A DNA stretch of 40,938 bases. It comes from Candidatus Saccharimonadota bacterium (GTDB lineage Bacteria > Patescibacteriota > Saccharimonadia > Saccharimonadales > Saccharimonadaceae). The notes under the pieces are model-generated. The model did not search any database, was not told the origin of the DNA, and saw nothing but the letters and a program-made list of their open reading frames with translations. Of the stretch, positions 27,250 to 33,370 are shown one piece after another. Location of the stretch: assembly GCA_017405245.1 (NCBI GenBank), contig JAFRAU010000005.1:1-40938 (forward strand). Reading direction: 5' to 3'. Numbering within the stretch: the first letter of the stretch is position 1; the number at the start of each line of letters is the position of its first letter. The position numbers and the translations under genes were made by a program.

Positions 27250-28440
27250 ATGCCAAATAGAGTACCATTAGCGGAGCGCATGCGTCCGCAAAAGTTAGAG
27301 GAAGTGATAGGTCAAGAGGAGATTATTGGTCCAGGAAAAATTTTGACGGAAATTGTTAAAAAAGGAGAGCCAGTTAATCTGATTTTTTGGGGACCTCCTG
27401 GCACTGGTAAAACCACTTTGGCCAGAATTTTAGCTAAGGAATATAAGGCAGATTTTATTGAAATTTCCGCAGTCACATCTGGGAAGAAAGATATTGCTTC
27501 CGTCGTTGAGCGTGCCAGAACTAATTGGAATCTAAATACTAGAACGGTACTTTTTGTAGACGAAATTCATCGCTTCAATAAAGCACAACAAGATGCTTTC
27601 TTGCCACACGTGGAGAGCGGCCTAATTATCTTAATCGGTGCAACCACGGAAAACCCTAGTTTTGAAGTAATCTCACCACTTCTTTCACGTTCCCGTGTAG
27701 TAGTGGTATCACCACTAAAAAAGGAGAGTATTGTCGCCGTATTAAAACGCGCTATAAAGGCAGAAAAAGCCACAAAACGCGTCACAAAGTCTGCTATTGA
27801 CTATTTGGCGGAGTTATCTGGCGGTGATGCTAGGAGCGCACTCGGAGATTTAGAACTAGCTCTGTCTCTGTCGCAAAAAGTAGATGTCGATACTGTCAAA
27901 GAAGCTGCCGGACGCAAGGTTCCAGGCTATGATAAAACCGGCGACCACCATTATGATAATATCTCGGCCTTTATTAAATCTATGCGCGGAAGCGATGTTG
28001 ATGCTACCCTTTATTATTTGGCGAGAATGGTGGAAGCGGGGGAAGACCCCAAGTTTATTGCTAGGCGGATGGTGATTTTTGCCAGTGAAGATATTGGCCT
28101 GGCCGGAAATGGCGCACTTAATCTCGCCGTCTCTGCTTTTCAGGCAGTAGAACGCGTCGGTATGCCAGAAGGTGGTATTATCTTATCACACGTGGCAGTG
28201 GTTCTGGCTAAGTGCAAGAAGAATCGTGATAGCTATAATGGTTGGGCGAGAGCAAAGGCTTTGGCTCATAATTCAATGGGCTTACCTGTCCCAATCCATC
28301 TCCGAAACGCCCCTACTAAGATGATGAAAGAAATGGGTTTTGGCAAGGGCCAAAAATGGGAAGCTGGATTTCATCTTGACAAAAACTATCTACCAGATGG
28401 GATTGCTGGACAAACAATTTTTGAAGAAACCAAAAAATAA
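27250..28440 (+). CDS. rarA: Replication-associated recombination ATPase RarA/MgsA
   Basis: RarA is an AAA+ ATPase related to clamp loaders that acts at stalled forks. Motifs seen are [22 protein letters not shown] (N-terminal), Walker [11 protein letters not shown] (about 47-56), Walker [16 protein letters not shown], sensor 1 GATTENPSF, sensor 2 [15 protein letters not shown], and the tetramerisation domain with [20 protein letters not shown] and ASEDIGLA. Length is 396 aa, slightly short of the usual 430-450. TATAAT at 27238-27243 ends 6 nt before ATG. Confidence 0.95.
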
Positions 28441-29054: not shown

Positions 29055-29222
29055 TTAGTCGCAATCAAAACTTCTATCGTCAATCTCGTCGTCATCATAT
29101 GGGTCAAGTCCCAGGACGTCTCTTACATCCTGGTCCCAGATGTCTGCCTCGTCTAGCTCGCCAGCAAAATATTTTTCTTCTACTTCATTGATATTATCCA
29201 GTGTCATATCATCCGGGTCCAT
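29055..29222 (-). CDS. Acidic 55-aa microprotein
   Basis: The minus-strand frame from ATG 29222 to TAA 29055 encodes 55 residues with about 22 Asp/Glu and only four Lys/Arg (MDPDDMTLDN...DPYDDDEIDD). It is too short for many ORF callers. Support comes from a minus-strand TATAAT (29229-29234) ending 6 nt before ATG, the same spacing as the leaderless housekeeping genes, and from codon use rich in GAC/GAT. There is no recognised family. Strong negative charge would fit a DNA-mimic, chaperone-like or regulatory peptide, but nothing shows which. Confidence 0.6.
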   Translation of the reverse strand: MDPDDMTLDNINEVEEKYFAGELDEADIWDQDVRDVLGLDPYDDDEIDDRSFDCD

Positions 29223-29261: not shown

Positions 29262-29290
29262 TTTACTAATTTACATATTTATGGTATAAT
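29262..29290 (+). promoter_or_regulatory. Promoter of the radical SAM operon (TTTACT-17-TATAAT)
   Basis: TTTACT at 29262-29267 and TATAAT at 29285-29290 are spaced by 17 bp. The predicted start near 29297 yields a leader of about 65 nt, in contrast to the leaderless genes around it. Confidence 0.7.
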
Positions 29291-29301
29291 AGTAATATCA
29301 G

Positions 29302-29320
29302 TTCTACGATAATCGTAGAA
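29302..29320. promoter_or_regulatory. Perfect palindrome, operator-like
   Basis: TTCTACGAT-A-ATCGTAGAA is a perfect 9-bp inverted repeat with a single central base, located 5 nt after the predicted transcription start. This is the usual place of a repressor operator; as RNA it could form a short hairpin in the leader. Confidence 0.6.
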
Positions 29321-29361
29321 AGTTGTTTAATAATTATTCAGAATAGAAGGGGGTGAGTTCT

Positions 29362-30351
29362 ATGAATGAACTAACTAGTTTTAAATTTGTCAAGGAATAT
29401 GTTTATCCGTCTGGAAGCGTCTACGTACTGTATAATCAAACAAATGATTTTTATATCGAAACAACTTCTATGCAGGATGTAGACACTCGTAACAAATCTC
29501 AAGAAGTAATAACAACGGATGACCCGGAACTTATCAAACAATGTTTAGTTCCGAAGGAAGAAAAGTGGCTTATTGCTATCAGTACTCAGTTTGGCTGTCC
29601 GCAGAAGTGCCGGTTTTGCCTTGTGCCAACACTCGGCTTTCAAGGCAATCTTTCTCGCAACCAGATGTGGGAACAGCTTGAATATGTGTTTTCTCAGAAT
29701 CCTGAAATCACGCATTCTCAAAAAATTAAAGTTGGTTTTGCAAGGATGGGAGAGCCTCAGTACAATTGGCAGAATGTGCTTGCGGTCATGCGTGATATGA
29801 AGTCATATCGCGATGGCTTTCGCTTCCTGCCATGCTACAACACAATTCTACCTAAGGTAAAAGTTGAAGGCAAAGGACCATTGGAAGTAATCATTGATGA
29901 AGTTATGCCGGTAAAAGAGTTGCTAGATGGTTTTATGCATATCCAAATAAGTGTTAACAGTACCAATGAAGATGAACGTAAGTTCTTATTTGGCGGAGCC
30001 GACGTTGCAACACTGAAAGAAATTCAGAGTGCATTTAACGGACTTCCAAATAGCAACCGGTTAATTACACTGAACTTTATTTGTGGTGCTGGTTGGGAAC
30101 TTGACCCCAAAAAACTTGAAGGGCTCGACCCCAACGTTTTTTGCATCAAGATTACTCCGCTCAATATTACAGAACGGACAACCGCAAACAATCTCAGCGA
30201 TGCAATTGGTTGGAACTGGGAACGCATGGAAAAGTTCAAACAAAGTATTAGTAGCTGTGGACTTAGGATTATTACTGACGTTGCCGCAAAAGCCGAGCTC
30301 CCACTTTGTTGTGGGAATTTAGTTCAGGATTACAAAAGGCACAATCCGTAA
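29362..30351 (+). CDS. RlmN/Cfr-like radical SAM protein
   Basis: The 329-aa protein has the radical SAM cluster C79-x3-C83-x2-C86 within ISTQFGCPQKCRFC and the RlmN-like motifs GNLSRNQMWEQ and FARMGEPQYNW (130-135), plus ITPLNITERT and a C-terminal CCGNL (C316/C317), matching the region of the methyl-carrying Cys of RlmN/Cfr. These enzymes methylate C2 or C8 of adenine in 23S rRNA or tRNA. It lacks part of the N-terminal accessory domain of true RlmN and is divergent, so the substrate is uncertain. The start at ATG 29362 has an AAGGGGGTGA site; a GTG at 29353 is an unlikely alternative. It is the first gene of a two-gene operon. Confidence 0.78.
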   Translation: MNELTSFKFVKEYVYPSGSVYVLYNQTNDFYIETTSMQDVDTRNKSQEVITTDDPELIKQCLVPKEEKWLIAISTQFGCPQKCRFCLVPTLGFQGNLSRNQMWEQLEYVFSQNPEITHSQKIKVGFARMGEPQYNWQNVLAVMRDMKSYRDGFRFLPCYNTILPKVKVEGKGPLEVIIDEVMPVKELLDGFMHIQISVNSTNEDERKFLFGGADVATLKEIQSAFNGLPNSNRLITLNFICGAGWELDPKKLEGLDPNVFCIKITPLNITERTTANNLSDAIGWNWERMEKFKQSISSCGLRIITDVAAKAELPLCCGNLVQDYKRHNP

Positions 30352-30365
30352 AAAGGAGGGGATTT

Positions 30366-31073
30366 ATGTATACCGCGACCAACAAAGGCTTTTCTATTAT
30401 CACTAGTTTTGGGTGTGGCCGGAATTGTAAATATTGCATTTCCAAACTTCATCCAATTCTCAGTGCATGTATCTCGCAAGAAGACAATATCGACTGGGAT
30501 CGTCTTGAAAAGTGTATTTCTGAAACAAAAGCACCAGAAGTGAACCTTTCTGGTGGCGGTGATCCATTTTTTGAATGGGAGAGACATCGCAACTTTTATC
30601 TTAGGATATATGAAGTCGCGAGGCATTACAAGAAAAATCTTGCCGTCCACTCGCGTATTATTCCATCCGATGTAGAGCTTTTAAAACTGTTTTCTAAATT
30701 TGCAATCACGGTAGAATACTACGACAGGAATGCGCTTCTTCACCTTAAAGATAATATGCCGCATCTTCAAGGAGTCGAGATAAACGTTCGCGTTGTCCAA
30801 GTCGTCAACGAAATGATGACGCGAGAGGACTGTGAAAACTACGTTAAGTTTCTCAAAATTGAATGTGGTGTTCCGAGAGTTACGTTTCGAGAAATGTTTG
30901 GTTCAGAGCCAGCGCAAGCGAATTTTGCAAGACTGAGAAACATAGATCTTGGAGATGGTGTACTATTTCTGCCGGATGGGGATTATCATGACTACTATTT
31001 TCTTCATGATAACACACTCTATCCATGCTTCTTCGGTAGAAATGAGGAGAGTCGCCAAGCACACTGCATTTAA
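30366..31073 (+). CDS. Radical SAM protein, unknown substrate
   Basis: The cluster motif is C17-x3-C21-x2-C24 in ITSFGCGRNCKYC, followed by EVNLSGGGDPFFEW, which corresponds to the GGEP-type SAM-binding motif. The 235-aa length suggests a core radical SAM fold with few additions. C-terminal cysteines (LYPCFFG and HCI at the end) might bind a metal or take part in catalysis. The AAAAGGAGGGG site, spacing of 14 nt from the upstream gene and a shared terminator tie it to the RlmN-like gene. The earlier in-frame opening at 30306 lies inside the upstream gene and is rejected. No specific family was recognised. Confidence 0.75.
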   Translation: MYTATNKGFSIITSFGCGRNCKYCISKLHPILSACISQEDNIDWDRLEKCISETKAPEVNLSGGGDPFFEWERHRNFYLRIYEVARHYKKNLAVHSRIIPSDVELLKLFSKFAITVEYYDRNALLHLKDNMPHLQGVEINVRVVQVVNEMMTREDCENYVKFLKIECGVPRVTFREMFGSEPAQANFARLRNIDLGDGVLFLPDGDYHDYYFLHDNTLYPCFFGRNEESRQAHCI

Positions 31074-31094
31074 AAAGAGAATTCTGAATAAGTT

Positions 31095-31122
31095 ATAAGG
31101 GAGCCAAGGCTCCCTTATTATT
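31095..31122 (+). terminator. Intrinsic terminator of the radical SAM operon
   Basis: ATAAGGGAGCC (31095-31105) and GGCTCCCTTAT (31108-31118) form an 11-bp stem with a 2-nt loop, followed by TATTATT. Confidence 0.85.
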
Positions 31123-31239: not shown

Positions 31240-31965
31240 TTATAATGATTTATCTCTGACATTATCTAATACTTTGAATAATTCTTCCGATGGCATTAGG
31301 CTATAAAAGGAAAATCCTCCCTTTGGTTTCGGCAGAGATTTTACTCCATACTCTCCCCAAATTTGAGTCGCTTTCTCATTATTATAGCTGTTGTCCCACC
31401 AGCCAGGCCTAAGCGAATCACCGTTTGGTATAAAATATCCCTCAGTATTTTTCAGAAGCTTTTCCGGCTTCCATCTTCCAATAAACATGAGTTGATTACG
31501 GTATAGCAACGGATCCGCTCTCATGCATTTGGTAGAAGAGTGCTTGATTGCAGCTATCTTCTTATCTTTGTATGGATTCGGGTCATCAGCAAAGAAAGGA
31601 ATTCTACTAAGATGCCACAACCAAGACAAATATCTATGAAACACCTTTTGGATAAGCCGCATGGCCGTACAAGGGGCCCCACCTATAAAGAATATTCTTG
31701 AAATTTGACTTGGTCGATATGTCGCCATTGCAAATGCGACGGCTGCGCCAAATCCGCCTTGCGCATGTATTTCAAATTTTTCATCATGCTCGTCAAAAAA
31801 ACTCACAACGCTCTCCTGTATACCGCTAGCGATTAATCGATTACCGTTATACTGAAAAACCTGTACTCGCTTCGTGCTATAATTACGCGAAACATCGTCA
31901 GCATACCATGATTCCGTGTCTACTGAATCACCTTCTGCCGGTATTATTAGAATATCGTCCTTCAT
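31240..31965 (-). CDS. Protein of unknown function, possible alpha/beta-hydrolase-like fold
   Basis: The 241-aa protein has an alternating strand/helix pattern and a segment FEIHAQGGFGAAVAFAMA (64-80) that looks like the strand-turn-helix of an alpha/beta-hydrolase elbow, followed by ISRIFFIGGAP. The nucleophile position holds Gly, not Ser, so esterase activity is not supported. Tryptophan-rich parts (RPGWWDNSYNN) follow. The start at 31965 has AGGAGGTGA 7 nt upstream; frames opening at 32136 or 32004 are rejected because a minus-strand TATAAT sits directly before the latter. It is divergent from the GNAT gene. Confidence 0.6.
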   Translation of the reverse strand: MKDDILIIPAEGDSVDTESWYADDVSRNYSTKRVQVFQYNGNRLIASGIQESVVSFFDEHDEKFEIHAQGGFGAAVAFAMATYRPSQISRIFFIGGAPCTAMRLIQKVFHRYLSWLWHLSRIPFFADDPNPYKDKKIAAIKHSSTKCMRADPLLYRNQLMFIGRWKPEKLLKNTEGYFIPNGDSLRPGWWDNSYNNEKATQIWGEYGVKSLPKPKGGFSFYSLMPSEELFKVLDNVRDKSL

Positions 31966-32094
31966 TTTTTTATCACCTCCTGTTAAGATACAACCTCCTT
32001 TCATATTATAGCATATTTTACGTCTTTTTGCAATTTTTATACCTAGAATAGTCGCCGTAAGATATAAAATGCAGGAGGAAACTGAGGATAATGT

Positions 32095-33294: not shown

Positions 33295-33370
33295 TGGTGG
33301 CTCCGACTGGACTTGAACCAGTGACACAAGGCTCTTCAGGCCTCTGCTCTACCAACTGAGCTACAGAGCC
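33295..33370 (-). tRNA. tRNA-Phe (GAA)
   Basis: The minus strand folds into a standard 76-nt tRNA with encoded CCA. The acceptor is GGCTCTG/CGGAGCC with one G-T pair, the D-arm is GCTCAGTTGGTAGAGC, the anticodon loop is CTGAAGA with anticodon GAA, and the T-loop is TTCAAGT. Confidence 0.95.

Follow-up and report, generated by a model that had tools for sequence, protein, structure and literature searches.

Organization of the locus

We analyzed a 40,938-nucleotide stretch of DNA from a Candidatus Saccharimonadota bacterium (positions 1 to 40,938 of contig JAFRAU010000005.1), hereinafter the window. It encompasses two adjacent genes for radical SAM proteins, denoted P1 and P2, which are flanked by predicted expression signals and are located in a variable interval of the chromosome:

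29262..29290, + strand: promoter-like site TTTACT-17-TATAAT with TG ahead of the second hexamer (extended -10), 10 of 12 consensus positions
29302..29320, + strand: inverted repeat TTCTACGATAATCGTAGAA in the leader, with perfect 8-bp arms, a putative hairpin or operator
29349..29357, + strand: Shine-Dalgarno run GGGGGTGAG upstream of P1, recognized from the sequence
29362..30351, + strand: P1, RlmN/Cfr-like radical SAM protein, 329 aa, identified by profile and by phage relatives
30353..30359, + strand: Shine-Dalgarno sequence AAGGAGG upstream of P2, recognized from the sequence
30366..31073, + strand: P2, small radical SAM protein outside the curated families, 235 aa
31095..31118, + strand: predicted intrinsic terminator stem-loop 3' of P2, with 10 pairs (5 of them G-C) and a T-rich tail
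33295..33370, - strand: tRNA-Phe (gaa), bounding the variable interval on its distal side

The ATG of P2 (30366) is located 14 bp past the stop codon of P1, on the same strand. For P1, ATG 29362 is the best start because the listed one, GTG 29353, lies inside the Shine-Dalgarno run at 29349-29357 and the relatives of P1 begin at about the ATG. Inspection by eye revealed no further genes within the P1-P2 unit. A preliminary description of this DNA had placed two radical SAM genes here, and both are real: each encodes a CX3CX2C motif, and their relatives are paired in phage contigs. The same description assigned to them a common promoter, leader, Shine-Dalgarno sites and terminator, and consensus matches indeed bracket both genes. 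Promoter-like sites number 12, versus 7.8 +/- 2.3 in shuffled sequences, and terminator-like sites 5 versus 1.7 +/- 1.5, the promoter and the terminator of the operon being consensus matches only. The leader has a fold z-score of -1.93. A second copy of the leader inverted repeat was not found in the same genome with up to 2 mismatches allowed; an operator common to other genes was rejected on this ground.

The genes downstream are separate from the unit; they start at 31240 (minus strand), 32107 (GNAT) and 32695 (minus strand, with a weak transglutaminase match). The first of these (31240-32055), next to the operon, is intact and encodes a 271-aa protein with no Pfam or NCBIfam family at E 1. 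Divergent to P1, a very acidic 55-aa open reading frame (MDPDDMTLDNINEVEEKYF...) occupies positions 29055-29222 of the minus strand; the stretch ahead of the promoter is otherwise empty. In an Rfam search over the region, tRNA alone scored above the threshold, and a CrcZ match that overlaps the stem of the terminator, at 23 of 95 bits, was attributed to chance. A single gene split in two was rejected as well: both frames are intact, and P1 and P2 show only 22.8% identity over 136 aa.

A recurrent two-gene cassette in phages and bacteria

The first relatives of the pair were found in one bacterial contig and six viral contigs, with the P1 and P2 profiles hitting the identical six; three of these contain near-identical matches and may represent one phage. 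The P1 relatives in phage contigs are 72-73% identical to P1, and P2 relatives adjoin them. A wider P1 profile retrieved 14 viral contigs, namely, the first six, L184 (the contig of locus L153) and seven others. Each of the 14 carries, beside P1, a small radical SAM gene with the CX3CX2C motif; this gene is P2-like in 13 contigs and of another kind in L187. The pair is present also in genomes G060 and G658, the latter from the same phylum as the host, where the two genes overlap in the P2-P1 order and the neighbors, judged by eye, do not look like phage genes. The preliminary description did not recognize the pairing of two such enzymes as a familiar pattern; the pair turns out to recur as a phage cassette.

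The arrangement of the two genes varies. The order is P1-P2 in the window and in L185-L190, P2-P1 in L153, L191, L004 and L008, and P2, one small intervening gene, P1 in the L002- and L005-type contigs; the P1 and P2 reading frames overlap at several loci. We take the small intervening gene, inspected by eye, to be HAD-like; its copy in L002 has no match in Pfam, and L002 carries, in addition, ClpP and PAPS reductase genes identified with Pfam. A third radical SAM gene, for a protein of 295 aa, is found about 1-2 kb past the pair in L004 (11910-12797) and L008 (12889-13776). No other gene constant beside the pair was noticed by eye.

In phylogenetic analysis, the paired P1s form a single clade (support 97/96) beside the clade of the Bacteroides phage Versailles protein, in a tree for which the program warns of long branches meeting elsewhere. 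At the P1 loci of this sister family, a CX3CX2C gene within 1.5 kb was found in 0 of 79 cases. The pairing count does not include the 20 solo relatives of P2, which belong to a phrog_17662/P70 side branch; with these added, 7 of the 27 P2-superfamily contigs contain a P1-type gene within the flanks that were fetched. The distances among P1s and among P2s are correlated (r = 0.89 for 13 pairs and 0.71 for 10 non-redundant pairs), and 0 of 10,000 permutations reached the observed r in either set; given that common descent of the carriers also yields correlated distances, the correlation demonstrates joint inheritance, not contact. Thus, the existence of a recurrent two-gene phage cassette is well supported. 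A search of mainly open-access full texts found no description of the pair.

P1 is a diverged member of the RlmN/Cfr group

The residues of P1 that are conserved throughout the paired clade are the following:

29596..29619, + strand: CX3CX2C of P1 (C79, C83, C86), invariant in 14 of 14 aligned paired P1s
29833..29835, + strand: Cys158 of P1, in an LPCxN motif, invariant in 14 of 14 paired P1s
30307..30312, + strand: vicinal Cys316-Cys317 of P1, invariant in 14 of 14 paired P1s

Judging by its sequence, P1 is a clear but remote relative of RlmN and Cfr, in line with the earlier assignment: it scores 44.6 bits against TIGR00048 (cut-off 290) and 31.8 of 550 against TIGR04432, and all 14 paired P1s match TIGR00048, the best with an E-value of 1.3e-21. 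P1 also matches phrog_24834 (6.8e-33). The alignment to E. coli RlmN starts in the beta extension, past the helical N-terminal (HhH) domain, which bears out the earlier remark that P1 is missing part of the N-terminal domain. The structure model of P1 is poor (pLDDT 51) and did not enter the fold search.

In the same alignment, P1 retains the MGEP motif, and Cys317 falls at C355, the methyl-carrying cysteine of RlmN, a role that is predicted for Cys317 as well. Cys158, which is missing from the Versailles protein, belongs to a stretch that comes to lie close to the STSG motif when P1 is aligned with RlmN. The position of RlmN C118 is occupied by Ala in the window P1 and its ~72% identical phage relatives and by Thr in the distant paired P1s. 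According to two publications, C118 (C105 in Cfr) is indispensable, probably as the general base, its mutation traps a crosslink between the enzyme and RNA, and the N-terminal HhH domain of Cfr is engaged in RNA binding (PMC9692996, PMC13001441). The score, the loss of C118 and the absence of the N-terminal domain rule out P1 as RlmN proper. Because C118 is reported to be indispensable, it is even possible that P1 does not act as a methylsynthase.

Within the paired clade, the loss of C118 accompanies the partner gene, and P1 and P2 have diverged in step. Both observations are compatible with a direct service of P2 to P1, whereby P2 would resolve the crosslink, activate P1 or provide a radical or an electron in place of C118, so that the pair would be one enzyme of two chains. 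Such an arrangement appears distinctly improbable because the Versailles family, which has no partner, also lacks C118 (Thr in 74 of 80), indicating that the loss of C118 by itself does not call for P2; moreover, the partner in L187 is a different small gene.

P2 is a small radical SAM protein whose modeled fold ranks nearest to viperin

The two principal motifs of P2 are conserved across the family:

30414..30437, + strand: CX3CX2C of P2 (C17, C21, C24), invariant in 13 of 13 aligned P2s
30549..30566, + strand: SGGGDP of P2, a GGE-type SAM-binding motif, with SGGGD invariant in 13 of 13

Also invariant in the 13 aligned P2s are H95, R142, Y207 and Y210. As the preliminary description had it, P2 is a small radical SAM partner without a family: no curated profile exceeds its cut-off, with EpmB at 21.8 of 369.3 bits, KamA at 17.3 of 199.2 and NrdG2 at 11.6 of 131, and the curated QueE and MoaA profiles give no match to P2 at E 1. 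Archaeal MoaA is matched by one of the 13 P2 relatives (2e-5). In PHROGs, P2 matches phrog_17662 (9.3e-18), a family of unknown function.

The P2 model (pLDDT 74.9) retrieved viperins in all 11 best rows of the fold ranking (Z 14.7-16.4), followed by SuiB (13.9), PqqE and AbmM (13.3 each) and QueE (13.2). The best alignment with a viperin covers 201 residues (Z 16.4, rmsd 2.7) at 9% identity, the fold being a common one in the superfamily and the model one of fair confidence. A viperin-like function would have P2 make a radical-modified free nucleotide to which P1 adds, or from which it removes, a carbon, so that the pair would be a nucleotide-altering or counter-defense device of phages or bacteria. 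The lead of the viperins in the fold ranking, the small size of P2 with its single cluster motif, the loss of the RNA-binding domain from P1 and the residence of both genes in phages are all compatible with this possibility. We nevertheless consider it unlikely: a likeness of fold does not show function, by eye nothing else is constant beside the pair, and the support for a viperin in sequence comparisons is nil to weak. Specifically, pVip and P2 match at E 0.0078, the two pVip models match 3 and 2 of the 13 members under E 0.1, and the viperin profile NF038283 matches 1 of 13 (E 0.0039), whereas EpmB weakly matches 11 of 13 P2s. A known defense system was rejected, with no significant PADLOC match.

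The EpmB matches (best 1.5e-7), which extend over the cluster and the SGGGDP region, are in keeping with modification of a protein or a peptide by P1 and P2, for example, of a host translation factor or ribosomal protein, in the manner of EpmB or of the RiPP enzymes. No other family is matched by as many P2s as EpmB, which is involved in EF-P lysylation, the SGGGDP motif resembles the SGGDP of the aminomutase group, and SuiB and PqqE come after viperin in the fold ranking. This alternative, too, is decidedly improbable: the EpmB score of P2 is far under the cut-off, P2 has 235 aa compared with the 321 positions of the EpmB model, no constant gene for a precursor peptide was seen by eye beside the pair, and the kinship of P1 is with RNA enzymes.

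Chromosomal context and horizontal transfer

The interval that harbors the unit is bounded on one side by an AAA ATPase gene (27250-28440), which we take by eye to be of the rarA type, and a gene for a 156-aa protein, and on the other side by tRNA-Phe and a gene identified by eye as presumable hisS. A second, partial hisS-like frame (151 aa, 56% identical) occurs elsewhere in the same genome (G000:C43:6712-7152) and may be explained by contamination or a second strain. tRNA-Phe is located between the ATPase gene and hisS in each of the 10 sibling loci scanned, and the ATPase-hisS distance varies from ~0.7 to 9.5 kb among the sibling loci with both matches in the fetched stretch. Neither P1 nor P2 has a match in any of the 15 fetched sibling stretches or in any of 59 related genomes (35 from the same genus and 24 from the same order). 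The block thus looks accessory, as described previously. At 0.41, the GC content of the pair is near the value for host genes in the window (0.427 +/- 0.015), and composition therefore speaks neither for nor against recent transfer; the patchy presence in the bacterium, however, points to transfer. A prophage remnant at the site was rejected given that inspection of the ORFs in the window by eye revealed no structural genes of phages and that no duplicated tRNA-Phe end was found. In summary, the cassette bears the marks of horizontal acquisition by this genome, where it forms a stand-alone operon.

The variability of the site among siblings and the lack of two RlmN features in P1 fit a pair of ordinary accessory genes that reached the site by chance and do not function together, P1 being a decayed RlmN. 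This explanation is highly improbable: the frames are intact, the catalytic motifs are invariant in 14 P1s and 13 P2s, the pairing is maintained in many lineages and the operon has its own predicted promoter and terminator.

RlmN itself appears to be absent from the order of the host as judged by profile searches: the TIGR00048 cut-off was passed by 0 of 36 genomes of the order, compared with 11 of 14 control genomes. The genome that carries the pair is 92% complete, so that the absence of RlmN there is not proof taken alone. The objection named in the preliminary description, that P1 could prove to be the sole RlmN of its genome and P2 a known activase or QueE/MoaA-type enzyme, applies by half: P1 is indeed the only RlmN-like match in the genome but, by score, C118 and the HhH domain, is no RlmN, and P2 matches no curated family. 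RlmN-like matches do occur in other families of the phylum: at E <= 1e-10, the P1 profile hits 69 of 379 genomes, almost always with partial matches in the range of 40-70 bits; the one such match examined closely, L247, shows the RlmN pattern (LCVSTQ...DAACGQL).

Proposed function of the pair

With somewhat less than even confidence, we favor the interpretation of the operon as a horizontally acquired cassette of phage type that encodes two radical SAM enzymes acting on a common substrate, most likely tRNA. Under this interpretation, the modification would proceed in two steps on a nucleic acid that is probably tRNA. P1, as a member of a phage branch of the RlmN/Cfr fold, would methylate Cys317 and form a methylene radical there, on paper the two reactions with which the RlmN cycle opens, and Cys317 would then deliver the one-carbon unit to an aromatic carbon of the substrate. 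Cys316, which adjoins the methyl carrier, or Cys158 could stand in for C118, these two, the other invariant cysteines, being our candidates. P2 would next elaborate the added one-carbon unit or help to release it. The most likely substrate is tRNA, with an anticodon-loop adenosine as the putative target. The pairing, the distribution in phages, the residue pattern and the patchy presence in the bacterium are observed, and the methyl-carrier chemistry, the surrogate cysteine, the order of the two steps and the tRNA substrate are all parts of the model that we infer. Speaking against this interpretation are the reported indispensability of C118, the loss of the HhH domain, the lack of both cysteines in more distant phage relatives and the fact that viperin, the best fold match of P2, acts on a free nucleotide.

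We favor tRNA given the kinship of P1 to RNA enzymes and the presence of tRNA genes near two of the pairs. In L153, an array of 26 tRNAs begins 264 bp past the pair (after P1), in a locus that also contains what we presume, by eye, to be an RtcB gene; in L190, tRNAs flank the pair on both sides. Outside the window, 13 pair loci were examined, and tRNA arrays accompany the pair at only 2 of these; a single tRNA-Ser is found at L243. In the wider family, any tRNA at all occurs at 7 of 92 loci. Because the other 11 pair loci have no array and the RNA-binding domain is gone, the link to tRNA as the substrate is suggestive only.

Given that P1 is RlmN-like and yet lacks a residue thought to be essential, the pair may perform a modification that has not been described so far. 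A more specific scenario, which we regard as possible albeit doubtful, is a pathway of two phage-born radical SAM enzymes that install a new nucleoside modification, with P1 natively free of C118 and relying on Cys316 or Cys158 instead (or keeping the carbon bridge for P2), and with P2 enlarging the added carbon group. If so, in phages the pathway would protect or retune tRNAs in the course of infection and, in the present host, would now be a stand-alone operon within a lineage without RlmN. More generally, the paired clade points to an unassigned modification system exchanged between phages and bacteria with small genomes, in which RlmN appears to be missing. The mechanism of the class A enzymes depends on two cysteines, and C118 mutants serve to trap the crosslink between the enzyme and RNA. 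A natural clade that keeps C355, has Ala or Thr in place of C118, contains further invariant cysteines and possesses a fixed second radical SAM partner offers a ready test of how this crosslink is resolved or used.

Comparison with known systems

Viperin (pVip) is the nearest solved fold to the P2 model but shares only 9% identity with P2, and its profile matches are not significant. EpmB and KamA resemble P2 through weak profile matches to the cluster and the SGGGDP region; their scores, however, are far under the cut-offs, and P2 is shorter than either model. The small radical SAM proteins of the phrog_17662/Listeria phage P70 type are remote relatives of P2 with which it shares the TNFGC and SGGGDP motifs; in contrast to the paired P2s, none of the 20 other relatives has a P1-type gene in its flanks, which were fetched for up to 5 kb.

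On the side of P1, the likeness to RlmN and Cfr, the class A methylsynthases (TIGR00048 and TIGR04432), consists of the radical SAM core with the CX3CX2C and MGEP motifs, the beta extension ahead of the core and the C-terminal CG[NQ]L cysteine at C355. P1 differs from these enzymes in the absence of the N-terminal HhH domain, the replacement of C118 by Ala or Thr, a score far under the cut-off, the additional invariant Cys158 and Cys316, and the constant small radical SAM neighbor. The solo RlmN relatives of the Bacteroides phage Versailles family are a sister clade with Thr at C118 in 74 of 80 members and TCGN at C355 in 76 of 80; unlike the paired P1s, this clade lacks the Cys-Cys pair, and the partner gene is missing from all 79 of its 79 loci. 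This family is large, with relatives encoded by 394 stretches of the viral collection, L066-L145 among them.

Other phages encode further variants. In Stenotrophomonas phages (L053, L064), a solo RlmN relative is located beside tRNA genes, and the L053 protein keeps Cys at C118 along with GCGQL. A distant phage branch (L011, L055, L056, L057, L058) lacks both methylsynthase cysteines and ends early. In the alignment, both cysteines are absent from the relatives in Moorella, Kehishuvirus, Vibrio, Pectobacterium and Yersinia phages, which suggests that, in these distant relatives, the RlmN fold has been reused for other chemistry.
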